This document shows, piece after piece, positions 268-7,375 of a DNA stretch of 13,870 nucleotides. Within the stretch, counting starts at the first letter, position 1. Each line of letters opens with the position of its first letter. The notes under the pieces were generated by a model, which was not told where the DNA came from, ran no database searches, and saw only the letters and a list, made by a program, of their open reading frames with translations. The DNA lies in contig CACZAK010000115.1 of assembly GCA_902779075.1 (NCBI GenBank), positions 1-13,870 of the forward strand, given 5' to 3'. The stretch is from an uncultured bacterium. GTDB taxonomy: Bacteria; Verrucomicrobiota; Kiritimatiellia; RFP12; UBA1067. The position numbers were made by a program, and so were the translations under genes.

Positions 268-293
268 AACCGCACATGAAAGGCTACATATCA

Positions 294-1664
294 ATGAGAA
301 AAACATCATTTCAATTCAAGGCCGTTTGCCTTGTGGTAGCGACCGTATCGGCGCAGGTTTTCGCGGGGGCGAATCTCATTCAGAATGGTACATTTGAAGG
401 TTCGGCGACGCAGCACAAGTGGGGCGGGTACTGGGACAGCAAGGGGTTTTCCTGTCCGGGGTGGAAGTTTGAAGGGCTTTCTGGAATTGCCAAGTCCGAT
501 GGCGTGTGGGTGGCGGAGAAATATTCCGTGGGCAGGTACGCCATGTTCCTGCAGCCGTGGAAGGATGCGGCCGTCTCACAGGTCATTCCCGTTTTGCCGC
601 AGGGCGACTATCGGCTGAGCTTCAACTACGTGGCGCGCCCGAACCATCCCGGCAACACGCAGATCTGGCTGGGGACGAAGAAACTGGGCGAGGTGGAGTC
701 CGATGCGACAATGCGTCACTTCTCTACGGACTTCTCGCTTTCCGAGAAACAGGAAAACGTGCTGTTCAAATTCTTCAGTCCCGCCCGCGACGCCGAGAAG
801 GACATCGCAATCGAAAACGTCGTCTTTCAACGTCTCGACGCCTCGATCGGTGACGCGAAGTATCCAGATCTCCTGACGGCGATGATCCATGCCGCAGACG
901 GCGATACGATCGTCTATTCGCCGGCGGGCGGCGACGCGGAACTGAAGGACGGCGTGGCGCTGGCTCGGCGCGCGACGGGACGCGTCCGTTCGCTCAAGGA
1001 AGAGGACGGCAAGTTGATCCTCGTCGTCGGGTCGGCGGCGCAGGGGAAAGGCGCTTCCGCCGACGTTGGACTTCTCCCGGCGGAAATCGGCCTCGGCTGG
1101 GAGAACGGCTGGGTAAAGGAATGGGTCCGCGACGTGCCGGGGCTCACGGTCACCGACGTCCGCACGCCTGCGGGCAACGGCTTTGAGCGCGTGGTGCGTC
1201 GTTGGGTGTGGCATGGCGCGAAGCCGCTCGAGAAGGTCACGCTTTCCGTCCGCTACCGGATGAAGGGCGATCCCAAGGCCCTCAAGCCGTTCCTGCCCGG
1301 CGTCCTCCTGTACGGCAATCCGTCCAACCGCGGGATCAAGGACGGACGCGTTCCCGTGTACTTCGGCGGGAAGGGCGAGTTCGGGATCTTCGAGGAGCCA
1401 TCGGCTGCCGATGCCGTTCTCGCTGCTGGAAAATGCCGCGACCGGCGATTTCGCGGCGCTGCACATCTGGCCGTCGCCGGTCAAGGGCGCGGTGCATCCC
1501 GACCAGTGGTGGAGCGCCGGCGTGGAGGCGGGCGAGGACGGCGCGGACATCGTGATGATGTCGGGCCCGGTCGGCTTCAACGGACGCCGCTCGACGGTGA
1601 AGGGCATTCCGTTCGACGGCGGCTGGACGAAATACGACGAGGCGTACATCACCCTCCAGCCTGA
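294..1664 (+). CDS. Secreted beta-sandwich protein, N-terminal part (frameshifted)
   Basis: This is the N-terminal part of a large exported protein that continues in another frame at 1411-3027. The ATG at 294 is preferred: AAAGG lies 10 bases upstream and it opens directly into a signal peptide (MRKTSFQFKAVCLVVATVSA, cleavage likely after QVFA). An in-frame ATG at 276 exists but sits at the predicted transcript start. After cleavage, a jelly-roll or carbohydrate-binding type domain begins with NLIQNGTFEG and runs to about residue 185, with the alternating hydrophobic strands expected of a galactose-binding fold. A second beta-rich region runs to about residue 370. The frame makes sense up to FGIFEEPSA near 1406. 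Beyond that the translation becomes Arg/Gly-rich out-of-frame sequence ending in a chance stop at 1664. An extra C in GCC at 1407-1409 would explain the break. The family is not recognised with certainty; the domain fold calls are inference. Confidence 0.75.
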   Translation: MRKTSFQFKAVCLVVATVSAQVFAGANLIQNGTFEGSATQHKWGGYWDSKGFSCPGWKFEGLSGIAKSDGVWVAEKYSVGRYAMFLQPWKDAAVSQVIPVLPQGDYRLSFNYVARPNHPGNTQIWLGTKKLGEVESDATMRHFSTDFSLSEKQENVLFKFFSPARDAEKDIAIENVVFQRLDASIGDAKYPDLLTAMIHAADGDTIVYSPAGGDAELKDGVALARRATGRVRSLKEEDGKLILVVGSAAQGKGASADVGLLPAEIGLGWENGWVKEWVRDVPGLTVTDVRTPAGNGFERVVRRWVWHGAKPLEKVTLSVRYRMKGDPKALKPFLPGVLLYGNPSNRGIKDGRVPVYFGGKGEFGIFEEPSAADAVLAAGKCRDRRFRGAAHLAVAGQGRGASRPVVERRRGGGRGRRGHRDDVGPGRLQRTPLDGEGHSVRRRLDEIRRGVHHPPA

Positions 1665-3027
1665 GAAGCCGATTGAGAAGCTGTTCTGGATCCAGACCGG
1701 CACGGCCACGAAGGACTCGTTCGGGTTCCAGCAGGCGATGCGCAAGTCGCTCGACATTTTCCAGCCCGAGCGCGCGCTGGTGCGCGAGGCGCCGCTCAAG
1801 CGGATCATGGCGGCGAAGCGCAACTACTCGCTGACGCGCTGGAGGGAGGACCCGACGAACGGGATGTGCGGCTTCACCACGTTCTGCAAGCCGCGTCCGA
1901 ACATGGTGTACCGTCAGCCGGTCGACTTCTACCACAACTCCTTCGGGCTGGGCTGGGTGGACCAGTCGGAGGCGTGCAGCTTCGGTCTGGCGGTGCTGGG
2001 GGTGACGCCGGACGACCGCGTGAAGGCGCAGCGTTCCCTTGACGCCATTGCCGACGCGTTTACGGACACGATCATGCCCGACGGACGTTTCTCTGTGCGC
2101 TATGTCTTTGGAGGGCAAATGCCCAAGAAGGGACACGGGGTCGGCTCGATCGTCAACTGCGCCATGACGCTCGACACCGTGATGCAGGCGGTGATCTTCG
2201 CCGACGCGCATCCGGAGGCGGGGCTCGACAGCGCGAAGTGGAAGACCTTCGTGAAGAAATCGCTCACGGCGCTGGCGGAACACGTGACGGGCAAGAACTG
2301 GCGCGGGCCGCACAACGCGGGCGACGGCTATCTCGTGCCGCCGCTCGTGATGGGCAGCGAGGTGTTCGGCGATCCGCGGATGCTGGCGGCGGCGGAGCGG
2401 ATCGCCGACGCGCTCGCCAAGCGGTTCATCTCCTACGATTCCGTTTACTGGGGCGCGACGCTGGACGCCCGCTGCGAGGACGGCGAAAGCTGCCAGTCGG
2501 CGTTCATGGGCTTCGAGGCGCTGTTCCGAAGTGCGGTCAAGCGCGGCGACAGGGACGCGGCGGCCAAGTGGGAACGGTGCGTTCGCCACGCGCTTGACAT
2601 GTCGCTCACCTACATGGTGTCCTGGGACATCCCGACGCCGGAGGGCAGCGACCTCTTCAACCACGCCTTCCGGGCGACCGGCTGGATGATGGTGTCGCCG
2701 CAGAACCAGTGCATGGACTGTCTGGGCGCGATCGAGGCGCCGGCGACATGGCGCATGGGCGTTTACTGGAAGGACCGGCGTCTGCAGGACCTCGCGAAAC
2801 TCCGGTTCGCGAGCGGCTGCCAGCTGCTCGACGAGGAGGGCGCGTCGGGCGAGAACATCCAGCTGACGAATTTCGGCAACCTCCTCGACGACCACCGGCA
2901 TCCCCCGCGCGACAGCGACGCGACGAAGTTCCGCGGCGTGTACCGCGACAGTTGGGAGATGCTCTGGATGACGGCCATCCACATGAAGGCCGGCTGCGAA
3001 TTCATGCTCATGGGCGTCGATTGGTAG
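1411..3027 (+). CDS. C-terminal part of the same protein: six-hairpin (alpha/alpha-barrel) glycosidase-like domain
   Basis: This frame continues the protein that starts at 294. The ATG at 1411 is only the first Met after the frame change; there is no ribosome binding site, and MPFSLLEN joins smoothly to FGIFEEPSA of the preceding frame. If restored, the product would be about 910 residues. The first 100 or so residues complete a beta-sandwich. The remainder (from about NYSLTRW onward) is rich in amphipathic helices, with glycosidase-like stretches such as VDFYHNSFGLGWVDQ, IMPDGRFSVRY and a GDGYLVPPLVMGSEVFG segment. This pattern fits an (alpha/alpha)6 six-hairpin fold as in several glycosidases, epimerases and lyases. 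I do not recognise a named family and cannot assign catalytic residues. The gene ends in TAG; the GH5-like gene follows after 65 bases with no terminator visible, so the two are probably co-transcribed. The frame break could be a true mutation or an assembly error. Confidence 0.7.
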   Translation: MPFSLLENAATGDFAALHIWPSPVKGAVHPDQWWSAGVEAGEDGADIVMMSGPVGFNGRRSTVKGIPFDGGWTKYDEAYITLQPEKPIEKLFWIQTGTATKDSFGFQQAMRKSLDIFQPERALVREAPLKRIMAAKRNYSLTRWREDPTNGMCGFTTFCKPRPNMVYRQPVDFYHNSFGLGWVDQSEACSFGLAVLGVTPDDRVKAQRSLDAIADAFTDTIMPDGRFSVRYVFGGQMPKKGHGVGSIVNCAMTLDTVMQAVIFADAHPEAGLDSAKWKTFVKKSLTALAEHVTGKNWRGPHNAGDGYLVPPLVMGSEVFGDPRMLAAAERIADALAKRFISYDSVYWGATLDARCEDGESCQSAFMGFEALFRSAVKRGDRDAAAKWERCVRHALDMSLTYMVSWDIPTPEGSDLFNHAFRATGWMMVSPQNQCMDCLGAIEAPATWRMGVYWKDRRLQDLAKLRFASGCQLLDEEGASGENIQLTNFGNLLDDHRHPPRDSDATKFRGVYRDSWEMLWMTAIHMKAGCEFMLMGVDW

Positions 3028-4931: not shown

Positions 4932-5014
4932 GTTCACCATGCGACCCTGTATTACACCAATGAGGGCGAGAGCCTCGTAGTTGGAATGGTTTGTGAAATT
5001 TCAAGTGAAGAAAC

Positions 5015-5020
5015 AAGGAG
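5015..5020 (+). promoter_or_regulatory. Ribosome binding site fixing the start at 5028
   Basis: AAGGAG lies 7 bases before the ATG at 5028. It selects that start, which opens directly into a signal peptide, over an in-frame ATG at 4986 that would add a charged stretch ahead of the signal and has no Shine-Dalgarno sequence. Confidence 0.7.
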
Positions 5021-5027
5021 AAACAAA

Positions 5028-5318
5028 ATGAACATGATCATCAATATAGCCTGGAAGGGTACGCTTGCTGCTGCGGCCTTTTGCGCGGCGCCGGCGTATG
5101 CGGGGGATGTCGATTTCTCGAAGATCCCCGACGTGCGAATCTTCGAGGGCGACTGCTACAAGAATTGCTCCATCGGCATCGCGTGGTCCGATGACCTGAA
5201 GGAGTGGACGTGGCCCGGCAAGACATGCAAATTGGGCGCAGGGCCTTTCCTTCAACGGCAAGACGCGCCAGTTCAAGGCCGGCGTCGCGGAGAGTGTAAA
5301 GTTGAAAGTGTAAAGTGA
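5028..5318 (+). CDS. Short signal-peptide ORF, probably the remnant of a collapsed secreted-enzyme gene
   Basis: The ORF encodes 96 residues, with a strong ribosome binding site (AAGGAG, 5015-5020) and a clear signal peptide (MNMIINIAWKGTLAAAAFCA, cleavage likely after AYA). The next 45 residues look like real protein, including SIGIAWSDDLKEWTWPGK, which recalls beta-propeller glycosidases such as GH43 or GH32 but is far too short to assign. From about 5240 the frame turns into an Arg/Gln-rich run that looks out of frame. The +1 frame there reads sensibly as GLSFNGKTRQFKAGVAESVK and stops at 5311-5313. The simplest reading is that a longer gene lost its middle, leaving its 5' and 3' ends out of frame. 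The present stop (TGA, 5316-5318) overlaps the GH127 start codon by one base, so the ORF may still matter for translating GH127. No function is assigned. Confidence 0.55.
   Translation: MNMIINIAWKGTLAAAAFCAAPAYAGDVDFSKIPDVRIFEGDCYKNCSIGIAWSDDLKEWTWPGKTCKLGAGPFLQRQDAPVQGRRRGECKVESVK
5293..5316. repeat. 14-bp-period direct repeat at the GH127 start
   Basis: The 10-mer AGTGTAAAGT occurs at 5293-5302 and again at 5307-5316, separated by TGAA, giving a 14-bp unit (AGTGTAAAGTTGAA). The second copy ends two bases before the GH127 ATG. The repeat takes the place of a normal Shine-Dalgarno sequence, supplying only weak purine-rich stretches. It could be slippage-generated or a copy of a dispersed intergenic repeat. 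Confidence 0.6.
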
Positions 5319-7375
5319 TGAATGCGATCACATGTGTTGCCGCCGTCGCTGCGATTTCGGGTGTGACGTTGGCGGGGGGGTATCCGTATTCGCTGGCTGC
5401 GCTGAACGACGTGAGGGTGACGGGCGGGTTCTGGCTGCCGCGCGTCGAGACAAACAGGCTCGTGACCGTCAAGACCGACTTCCGCAAGTGCGAGGAGACC
5501 GGGCGCATCGCGAACTTTGAGAAGGCCGCGCGGCGCGAGAAGGGTGGCTTCAAGGGCGTACCGTGGGATGACTCCGACGTCTACAAGGTGATCGAGGGCG
5601 CGGCCTACACGCTCGCGCAACATCCAGACGCGGAACTCGACCGCTACCTCGACAACCTCATCGCACAGATCGCCGGTGCGCAGGAGCCGGACGGCTATCT
5701 CTACACCGCCCGCACGCTCGGACACAAGGCGAAGATGATGGGGCCGAAGCCGTTCAGCCAAAACCGCGACGCCTGCGAGCTCTACAACGTGGGCCACCTC
5801 TACGAGGCCGCCGTGGCGCACTACGAGGTGACGGGCAAGCGCTCGCTCCTCGACGTCGCGATCAAGAACGCCGACCTCGTCGCAAAGACGTTCGGCCTCG
5901 GCGAGGGACAGAACCGCGAAGTGCCCGGCCACGAGGAGATCGAGATCGGCCTCTGCCGCCTCTACCAGGCGACGGGCGACGCGAAGTACCTCAAGCTCGC
6001 GCAGCACTTCATCGATATGCGCGGACGCAAGGACCTGCGTCCCGTCTGGGGTGCGGCCTACCAGGACCACAAGCCGGTGCTGGAGCAGAAGGAGGCGCTC
6101 GGACACGCCGTCCGCGCCGCGTATCTCTACGCCGGCATGGCCGATGTCGCGGCGCTCACGGGCAACACGGCGTATGTGGACGCGATCGACGCGCTCTGGG
6201 AGAATGTCGTCGGGCGAAAGCTCCACCTCAACGGCGGAATCGGCGCAAGGCGTCATGTCAAGTACCGCGACCCCGCGCTCGGCAGCGCGCACGAGGCGTT
6301 TGGCGACGAGTACGACCTGCAGAACCTCGACGCCTATCTTGAGACGTGCGCGGCGATCGGCAACGCGCTTTGGAACGAGCGTATGTTCCTTCTGCACGGC
6401 GACGCGAAGTACATCGACGTGATGGAGCGCACGCTCTACAACGGACTCATCAGCGGCGTCTCTATCGGCGGCGACGAGTTCTTCTATCCGAATCCGCTGG
6501 CGTCGAAGGGCGGATACGCGCGCTCGAAGTGGTTCGGGTGCAGCTGCTGTCCCGTGAACGTGGTGCGCTTCATCCCGCAGATCGGACGTTTCGCCTATGC
6601 GACGAAGGGGAACGCCGCGTACGTGAACCTGTTCGTGGAAAGCGAGGCGACGCTGCGTCTCGCCAGTGGCGAGGTGAAGCTCGCGCAGAAGACGGCATAT
6701 CCGTGGAAGGGCAGCGTGAGGATCGAGGTTGCGCAAGGTAGGGCGGGCAGCCCTCTGCCCGCCGCGGCGGTCGCGGGGCGACCGCCCTACCAGCGCTTCG
6801 CGCTCAACATCCGCGTGCCGGGGTGGTGCGTGGGGCGGCCGGTGCCGAGCGATCTCTACGAGCAGGTTGTGACGGGGGCGCTGGATGATTTCTGCGTGAC
6901 GGTGAACGGCGCGGCGGTGAAGGTCGCACCTGTGAAAGGCTACTGCGTGATCGACCGCGCATGGAAGGCGGGCGATGTGGTGGAGATTTCAATGAACATG
7001 CCGGTTCGCCGCATCAAGGCGAACGACAAGGTCGCGGCGGATCGTGGACGGGCCGCGGTGGAGCGCGGTCCGATCGTCTTCTGCGCCGAGGGAATCGACA
7101 ACGGCGGCAAGGTGCTGGATGCCTGTCTGCCGCTGAACACCACATTCACCGAAGGCGAGGTCGAGATCGCTTCGACGCGGATGGTGTCGCTCACGGGCGG
7201 CGGGCTGACGCTTGTGCCGTATTTCGCGTGGTGCCATCGCGGCGCGGGCGAGATGCAGACGTGGTTCGCCGAAAGCGCGGAGGCGGTCATGGAGAAGGTG
7301 CGCGCCGCGCGCGTTCAGGCGTCGTACTGCCGTCCGAAGAGGTCGGCCGGTATCGTCGAGGTTCGCACACGCTAA
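5318..7375 (+). CDS. GH127 family glycoside hydrolase (beta-L-arabinofuranosidase type, DUF1680)
   Basis: The product is 685 residues, exported by a short hydrophobic N-terminus (MNAITCVAAVAAISGVTLAG) that unusually lacks Lys or Arg. A stop at 5303-5305 leaves only GTG 5315 or ATG 5318 as starts, so the signal is not truncated by start choice. The family uses a cysteine nucleophile next to a zinc site in an (alpha/alpha)6 barrel. The catalytic set is intact by comparison with the characterised HypBA1: Glu326 in HEAF as acid/base, Glu342 and Cys344 in LETC as zinc ligands (the 16-residue spacing from Glu326 matches), and Cys410-Cys411 in CSCCPVN as nucleophile and zinc ligand. Other hallmarks are GGFWLPRVETN, FKGVPWDDSDVYKVIEG and LYNVGHLYEAAVAHYE. 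A C-terminal beta-sandwich begins about residue 440 and carries an in-frame palindromic insert (residues 474-491). Known activities include beta-L-arabinofuranosidase and, in rhamnogalacturonan-II systems, aceric acid hydrolase; which applies here is open. Translation is probably coupled to the overlapping upstream ORF. Confidence 0.93.
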   Translation: MNAITCVAAVAAISGVTLAGGYPYSLAALNDVRVTGGFWLPRVETNRLVTVKTDFRKCEETGRIANFEKAARREKGGFKGVPWDDSDVYKVIEGAAYTLAQHPDAELDRYLDNLIAQIAGAQEPDGYLYTARTLGHKAKMMGPKPFSQNRDACELYNVGHLYEAAVAHYEVTGKRSLLDVAIKNADLVAKTFGLGEGQNREVPGHEEIEIGLCRLYQATGDAKYLKLAQHFIDMRGRKDLRPVWGAAYQDHKPVLEQKEALGHAVRAAYLYAGMADVAALTGNTAYVDAIDALWENVVGRKLHLNGGIGARRHVKYRDPALGSAHEAFGDEYDLQNLDAYLETCAAIGNALWNERMFLLHGDAKYIDVMERTLYNGLISGVSIGGDEFFYPNPLASKGGYARSKWFGCSCCPVNVVRFIPQIGRFAYATKGNAAYVNLFVESEATLRLASGEVKLAQKTAYPWKGSVRIEVAQGRAGSPLPAAAVAGRPPYQRFALNIRVPGWCVGRPVPSDLYEQVVTGALDDFCVTVNGAAVKVAPVKGYCVIDRAWKAGDVVEISMNMPVRRIKANDKVAADRGRAAVERGPIVFCAEGIDNGGKVLDACLPLNTTFTEGEVEIASTRMVSLTGGGLTLVPYFAWCHRGAGEMQTWFAESAEAVMEKVRAARVQASYCRPKRSAGIVEVRTR
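6737..6791. repeat. 55-bp palindromic double-hairpin element inside the GH127 gene
   Basis: Perfect 10-bp terminal inverted repeats (GGTAGGGCGG at 6737-6746, CCGCCCTACC at 6782-6791) enclose two tandem perfect hairpins. The first is GGCGGGCAG/CTGCCCGCC (6742-6750 with 6755-6763, loop CCCT). The second is GGCGGTCGC/GCGACCGCC (6766-6774 with 6778-6786, loop GGG). This resembles REP/MITE-type short palindromic elements. It is read in frame as residues 474-491 (GRAGSPLPAAAVAGRPPY), a Gly/Ala/Pro-rich stretch between beta strands. No stop codon is introduced. No second copy is visible in this window. Confidence 0.8.

Follow-up and report, generated by a model that had tools for sequence, protein, structure and literature searches.

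The 55 bp at positions 6737–6791 of the window, by which we mean the whole stretch of 13,870 nt analysed here, are a real REPIN, read in frame as part of an intact GH127 gene. The unit very probably belongs to a family of GTAG REPs that is dispersed across one family of Kiritimatiellae living in ruminant guts, and a RAYT would have moved or copied it into a loop of the GH127 enzyme that keeps turning over.

The sequence of the element is GGTAGGGCGGGCAGCCCTCTGCCCGCCGCGGCGGTCGCGGGGCGACCGCCCTACC, with terminal repeats (GGTAGGGCGG/CCGCCCTACC) that pair over 10 bp without a mismatch. Each of the two inverted hairpins carries GTAG at its 5′ foot, and only 2 nt separate them (Table 1). The description given in the earlier note, a 55-bp unit with perfect 10-bp terminal repeats and two 9-bp-stem hairpins located within coding sequence, is thereby confirmed. 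No other perfect 9-bp stem with a loop of 3–6 nt exists in the entire window, where 60 dinucleotide shuffles gave a mean of 0.52 per window and a maximum of 4. The RNA fold of the 59 nt from 6735 to 6793 reaches −43.6 kcal/mol (z −4.6), a value as low as which was obtained in none of 200 shuffles. On each strand the foot's TAG shuts one reading frame of the unit, leaving two open. No second copy could be detected in the window, as a search with the terminal repeat allowing up to 2 mismatches returned 7 matches against 5.7 expected, and those with fewer than two mismatches were the element's own two ends. Searches of Rfam, of viral contigs (exact pattern) and of plasmids (blastn) likewise gave no match to the element.

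Table 1. Positions of the element, its two halves and the host gene in the window
Feature	Position	Strand	Remarks
GH127 beta-L-arabinofuranosidase gene, carrier of the element	5315..7375	+	start GTG 5315 or ATG 5318; PF07944 (360 bits), PF20736, PF20737
REPIN, 55 bp, two GTAG REPs in inverted orientation	6737..6791	+	in-frame peptide GRAGSPLPAAAVAGRPPY
Left REP	6738..6763	+	foot GTAG 6738–6741; hairpin 6742–6763, 9-bp stem, 4-nt loop
Right REP	6766..6790	−	hairpin 6766–6786, 9-bp stem, 3-nt loop; foot CTAC 6787–6790 (GTAG on the minus strand, 6790–6787)

The open reading frame of the host gene continues across the element, whose peptide corresponds to residues 475–492 when counted from the GTG; that is, the in-frame insert of about 18 residues noticed earlier stands, while its numbering as 474–491 does not. 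The catalytic, middle and C-terminal domains of GH127 are all present in the protein, and the element-encoded residues fall within the Pfam domain Glyco_hydro127M (residues 436–562). Residues E327, E343, C345, C411 and C412, which correspond to those serving catalysis and zinc binding in HypBA1, are unchanged across 46 aligned rows. The best fold match is the GH127 enzyme 6EX6 (46% identical), and the sequence alignment with it leaves a gap of 16 residues opposite the insert, at a tight turn. In an AlphaFold2 model built from the 46-row alignment (mean pLDDT 79.7), the insert forms a low-confidence loop (pLDDT below 50 at residues 479–486) flanked by strands 467–473 and 492–500. The enzyme is probably still active with the insert. 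About five regions of GH127 vary in length, the element's loop being one among them, and the loop is not a unique hotspot in the protein.

The nearest relatives of the gene are found in Kiritimatiellae MAGs, many of them from ruminant guts. Four of these (L001–L004) have the unit at the identical GH127 site, with 55 of 55 positions matching in three and 54 of 55 in L004. The same four genomes account for every REPIN (4 of 30) among the GH127 loci fetched from a search of 114 family genomes, one of the 30 loci, L151, stopping at the loop. When the REPIN is judged by its peptide, there are four carriers among the best 120 of 7,999 scored protein homologues (P0004, P0005, P0009 and P0012), some of which are the same sequences as L002 and L003. 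These relatives also bear on the idea that the element is an assembly artefact, since they are metagenome assemblies in which a 55-bp repeat would be open to short-read misjoining. However, both sides of the element belong to one GH127 in a single frame, and the same arrangement recurs in the different assemblies of L001–L004 and, by peptide, in the four protein homologues, which makes an artefact extremely improbable.

In many homologues the loop is short and of the TPxKDGxR type, and it is likewise short in the solved homologue 6EX6. The earlier note was thus right in expecting homologues without the insert, but the insert is not a plain addition to a constant loop, as close relatives carry other repeats there. 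With the element, the loop gains about 14 codons over the usual short version and lacks the host codons in between; this comparison does not support the proposal that additional bases were brought in or duplicated upon insertion. A clean empty copy of the loop was not found among the GH127 relatives compared; L006 lacks the unit, but its gene differs otherwise too. The one clean pair of filled and empty forms is seen elsewhere in the gene, in L001, where a single GTAG REP (L001 8157–8182) lies in frame near residue 70 in addition to the REPIN in the loop. This REP represents a 36-bp gain relative to the window and L002–L006, with both flanks matching, and no target duplication was found there by eye, the flanking 10 bp agreeing at about 7 positions.

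The 114 family genomes were searched with the pattern GGTAGGGCGGN{25,50}CCGCCCTACC, with the reversed pattern as control. The pattern retrieved 46 copies in 16 genomes and the control none. The 55-bp unit is therefore multi-copy in relatives of the window, as the earlier note had envisaged. The units measure 50–68 bp, each of them pairing two hairpins drawn from a small set. Single hairpins were clearly above control in eight of ten genomes; the counts of matches versus control on both strands, in which some hairpins were matched twice, were 207/8 in G004, 144/5 in G005, 137/6 in G001, 116/8 in G041, 38/5 in G006, 28/7 in G003, 24/5 in G002, 18/1 in G018, 9/7 in G008 and 6/3 in G014. With at most one mismatch, the right arm of the window's element is present in 102, 14, 12, 127, 104 and 0 copies in G001 to G006, respectively, and the left arm in 3, 2, 2, 2, 5 and 0 copies. 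One of the two left arms in each of G002 and G003 is the GH127 locus itself.

Reading the ORFs around all 46 REPINs, we scored a copy as lying in a gene when domain matches covered the unit or stood on both sides of it, or when the gene could be aligned to orthologues. By this measure 21 of the 46 copies, at 12 sites, are in frame within recognisable genes. The hosts are GH127 (4 copies), a ferredoxin-like gene (4), LeuC (3) and GH2 (2, the second of which, L123, was assigned through its likeness to L085). Single copies occur in two DUF5107-TPR proteins, a pyruvate-formate-lyase-like enzyme, an MFS transporter, a second GH127-like protein, a RAYT-like gene, a GH67-N-like protein (match below cut-off) and a zinc alcohol dehydrogenase (second domain below cut-off). 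The ferredoxin-like gene of L126 may be broken, as a TAG precedes the element by about 60 codons; G041, the genome concerned, has another copy. Two further copies (L134 and L138) have no Pfam family match at their ORFs and probably lie in genes, and the remaining 23 are intergenic, near gene ends or in doubtful ORFs. In the MFS transporter of G041, one loop holds both the REPIN and, close by, a second single REP (L142 606–663 and just downstream). At the 12 in-gene sites the foot is read as GGT-AGG in ten and as G-GTA in two (L090 and L125), so that the TAG is read in none. Since this TAG closes only one of three frames per strand, an insertion within a gene can survive. The units at these sites are 55, 56, 58 and 68 bp long; none of these lengths is a multiple of three, which means that host bases gained or lost must restore the frame.

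A candidate for the mobilising enzyme came to light in the surroundings of the REPINs. Two proteins examined scored 70.8 and 62.8 bits against the NCBIfam model REP_Tyr_transpos, below its cut-off of 80, and had no Pfam match at 0.001; we refer to such proteins as RAYT-like. With E ≤ 0.001 as threshold, 48 of the 114 family genomes have a match; 14 do so at E ≤ 1e-19. At the latter threshold 7 of the 16 REPIN-bearing genomes have a match, compared with 7 of the 98 others (p = 0.0006, a rough value given that the threshold was picked after viewing the list and that the genomes are related and the MAGs incomplete). GTAG hairpins lie in or beside the gene at 12 of the 14 strongest loci (L236–L249), and at three of them (L236, L237 and L244) the window's own right-arm hairpin does so. 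Furthermore, the loop following the HUH motif is an in-frame REP-derived peptide at 9 of the 14 loci, with differing hairpin types (2 have none and 3 were unread). The RAYT-like gene of G005 (L244 1268–1528) contains several in-frame REPs, three of them consecutive after the HUH motif. In G004, G005 and G041 the hairpin types present at the RAYT recur elsewhere in the same genome. The RAYT's own REP type was compared with samples of 176–400 kb from five genomes: in the G055 sample the RAYT carries the genome's own type, and the samples of G056, G035, G046 and G104 held 1–12 GTAG hairpins each, near the controls (1–16), with the RAYT's own type uncommon. G002 and G003 carry the element, yet their RAYT-like matches are weak (E 4.5e-4 and 6.1e-4). 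These weak matches and the few left arms there make recent transposition in the two genomes doubtful. A Pfam Y1_Tnp search, which was not the source of the REP-bearing RAYT-like genes, had matches in all eight genomes searched; the first 20 of the 25 loci listed had no GTAGGGCGG hairpin beside them and gave no candidate for the element's transposase.

The GTAG feet, inverted hairpins, dispersed copies and RAYT-like genes bearing such REPs in relatives bear out the suggestion that a REP-type mobile palindrome has inserted in frame. A RAYT-type HUH transposase, guided by the GTAG foot, would cut and rejoin single-stranded REP hairpins, and such an enzyme may have moved or copied the REPIN to where two beta strands of the GH127 middle domain are joined by a turn. 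The insertion would survive in the gene provided that the net length keeps the frame and that the loop tolerates some 18 Gly/Ala/Pro-rich residues.

The features shared with the published GTAG REPs and REPINs of the RAYT/TnpAREP systems, as far as described in PMC3116915, PMC3733652 and PMC8266576, are the GTAG foot, the hairpin, the inverted dimer, the dispersed copies and the REP-bearing RAYT-like gene, the last two being found here in relatives. The GTAG is described as important for TnpAREP cleavage, to a degree that depends on the system (PMC8266576). Published accounts place REPs mainly between genes (PMC3733652, PMC3116915), whereas nearly half of the copies reported here are in frame in genes, with perfect stems. 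Nevertheless, GTAG REPs inside genes are reported from several species, most of them in Opitutus terrae, another member of the Verrucomicrobia; these intragenic REPs, singles as well as dimers, are in frame in genes of many functions, as they are here (PMC3733652). An extragenic location would thus be a tendency of REPs rather than a requirement, given these published members. Likewise, subclass 2.4 TnpAREP genes, which abound in Cyanobacteria and Bacteroidetes and have a scattered occurrence in other phyla, hold in-frame REPs according to PMC6006769, and so do the RAYT-like genes found here, a likeness that is not tree-based. REPs within genes and TnpAREP genes with in-frame REPs have therefore already been published (PMC3733652, PMC6006769), and what is added here is an unusually visible turnover of loops. 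Different REPs at about one site are described for recB of two Xanthomonas species (PMC3733652); in our case the orthologous loop has a REPIN, a single REP, heptamer-type or other repeats, and this in three genes. A survey of titles and abstract openings, in literature outside most subscription journals, found none on REPs in Kiritimatiellae, and titles from the same range of journals included none on loop turnover by REPINs.

The Rickettsia palindromic elements, with which the unit had been compared, raise a further alternative, namely that it represents an independent class of selfish coding palindromes and not a REP. Both are palindromes that stay in frame with the many unrelated genes harbouring them, and as an analogy the comparison holds. 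We know of no GTAG foot or RAYT link for the Rickettsia elements, whereas here the feet are GTAG, the hairpins are of REP size and paired in inverted orientation, and RAYT-like genes bear the same hairpins, all of which points to GTAG REPs and REPINs as the closer family, and we consider a separate class highly unlikely. RPE-1 is also longer than the present element, and RPE-4 and RPE-6 are themselves classed as CGTC REPs in the account of PMC3733652.

Turnover was observed in at least three genes, near-identical proteins having different repeats in one and the same loop. For GH127, the row nearest to the window in the protein tree (P0001; 98% identical over 608 tree columns and 93% by BLASTP over the protein) has the heptamer-type peptide NSQLSTRN where the window has the REPIN peptide, and P0002, a neighbour of L001, has GETASVQQQVVRPETQN at the loop. 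At the DNA level, the GH127 loop contains heptamer arrays in L152, L154 and L161 (the reversed heptamer pattern matches the same arrays and provides no usable control) and a GETASVQQQ repeat in L005, L168 and L174. With up to 2 mismatches, copies of the latter repeat number 7 in G005, 3 in G004, 2 in G001 and 1 each in G046 and G047, with 0 in six others. On the tree (35 rows, 32 of them different, loop columns excluded), the four loop states, defined for the P rows by peptide motifs of our choosing and not by DNA, require 12 changes, against a least possible number of 3 and a shuffled mean of 17.8. Five changes involve the REPIN state, of which 4 are forced by starred branches, some branches near the window being weakly supported. 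Recombination from strain to strain could move loop states and would lower the number of events.

In LeuC, 30 loci comprised 3 with a REPIN, 6 with a single GTAG hairpin, 1 with a reversed half and 18 with none (2 were unread). In the ferredoxin-like gene, also at 30 loci, there were 4 REPINs, 2 other double palindromes, 8 heptamer-like arrays and 16 with neither, a few of these 16 containing other short inverted repeats. The two other double palindromes (L211 and L212), GGGAGGGCC...GGCCCTCCC without GTAG, are placed where relatives have a REPIN or heptamers. Moreover, the ferredoxin-like REPINs of L206 and L207 differ in one arm while their flanks are nearly identical. The differing arms within near-identical flanks, and the occurrence of single REPs, REPINs and unrelated repeats at one place in relatives, indicate that the loop keeps turning over after insertion, and in GH127 such repeats seem to keep rewriting it. 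We tentatively raise the wider possibility, somewhat short of an even chance in our judgement, that permissive loops in these Kiritimatiellae are exchange sites where REPINs, single REPs, heptamer arrays and other dispersed repeats swap in frame, such that loops evolve much faster by swapping than by point mutation and REPIN copies are kept alike by conversion. If true, such exchange would give secreted enzymes and core metabolic proteins alike a general way of acquiring new loops.

The palindromic DNA of the element is conserved better than the gene around it, and not less well than the amino acids, the outcome that would have pointed away from an inserted palindrome. On a five-sequence tree set by hand from pairwise identities, (((window, L001), L004), (L002, L003)), a single change is needed over the 55 sites of the element, as against 482 over 1,871 sites in the remainder of the gene. 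The gene-average rate predicts 14.2 changes in the element (Poisson P ~1e-5 under one uniform rate). None of the 1,762 other overlapping 55-nt windows of the gene had one change or fewer, the lowest having 2. Third codon positions changed at 0 of 18 sites in the element versus 293 of 624 in the rest, and the flanks have 17 changes in the 37 nt before and 9 in the 39 nt after. A DNA sequence conserved more strongly than its protein is not expected of a dead insertion, and the sameness of the 55 bp could result from homogenisation by other copies, repeated insertion or constraint on the hairpins. The last of these leads to the alternative that hairpin DNA, RNA or peptide has a function in the GH127 gene (pausing, mRNA stability or a binding loop) and that selection explains the conservation. 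This would fit the near absence of changes, at third positions too, and the very stable fold of the element's RNA. However, close relatives have unrelated repeats or the short turn instead, the same hairpins are found at many other places, and REP doublets are described as more conserved than singlets, with no host function reported in the account given by PMC3116915. We therefore regard a function in the host gene as unlikely, and favour a REPIN spread within the family.

REPs are named for an extragenic location, and their spread and their effects on proteins are still open questions. The Kiritimatiellae group offers REPINs in frame in nearly half of the cases, near-identical genes with different loop repeats, and RAYT-like genes bearing REPs. 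These features make it possible to test how REPINs enter genes without breaking them, and if the evolution of protein loops is driven by mobile repeats.

Some further observations concern the DNA upstream of the element. A heptamer-like array (AGTGTAA AGTTGAA AGTGTAA AGTGATG) at 5293–5317 of the window abuts the GTG/ATG start of the GH127 gene. The short ORF at 4986–5318 has a signal-peptide-like start and its second half carries on in another frame; it resembles what is left of a longer gene after truncation or a frameshift. Finally, within 276–3027, the long ORFs 276–1664 and 1411–3027 overlap in different frames and look like one gene with a frameshift near 1410, either real or from the assembly.
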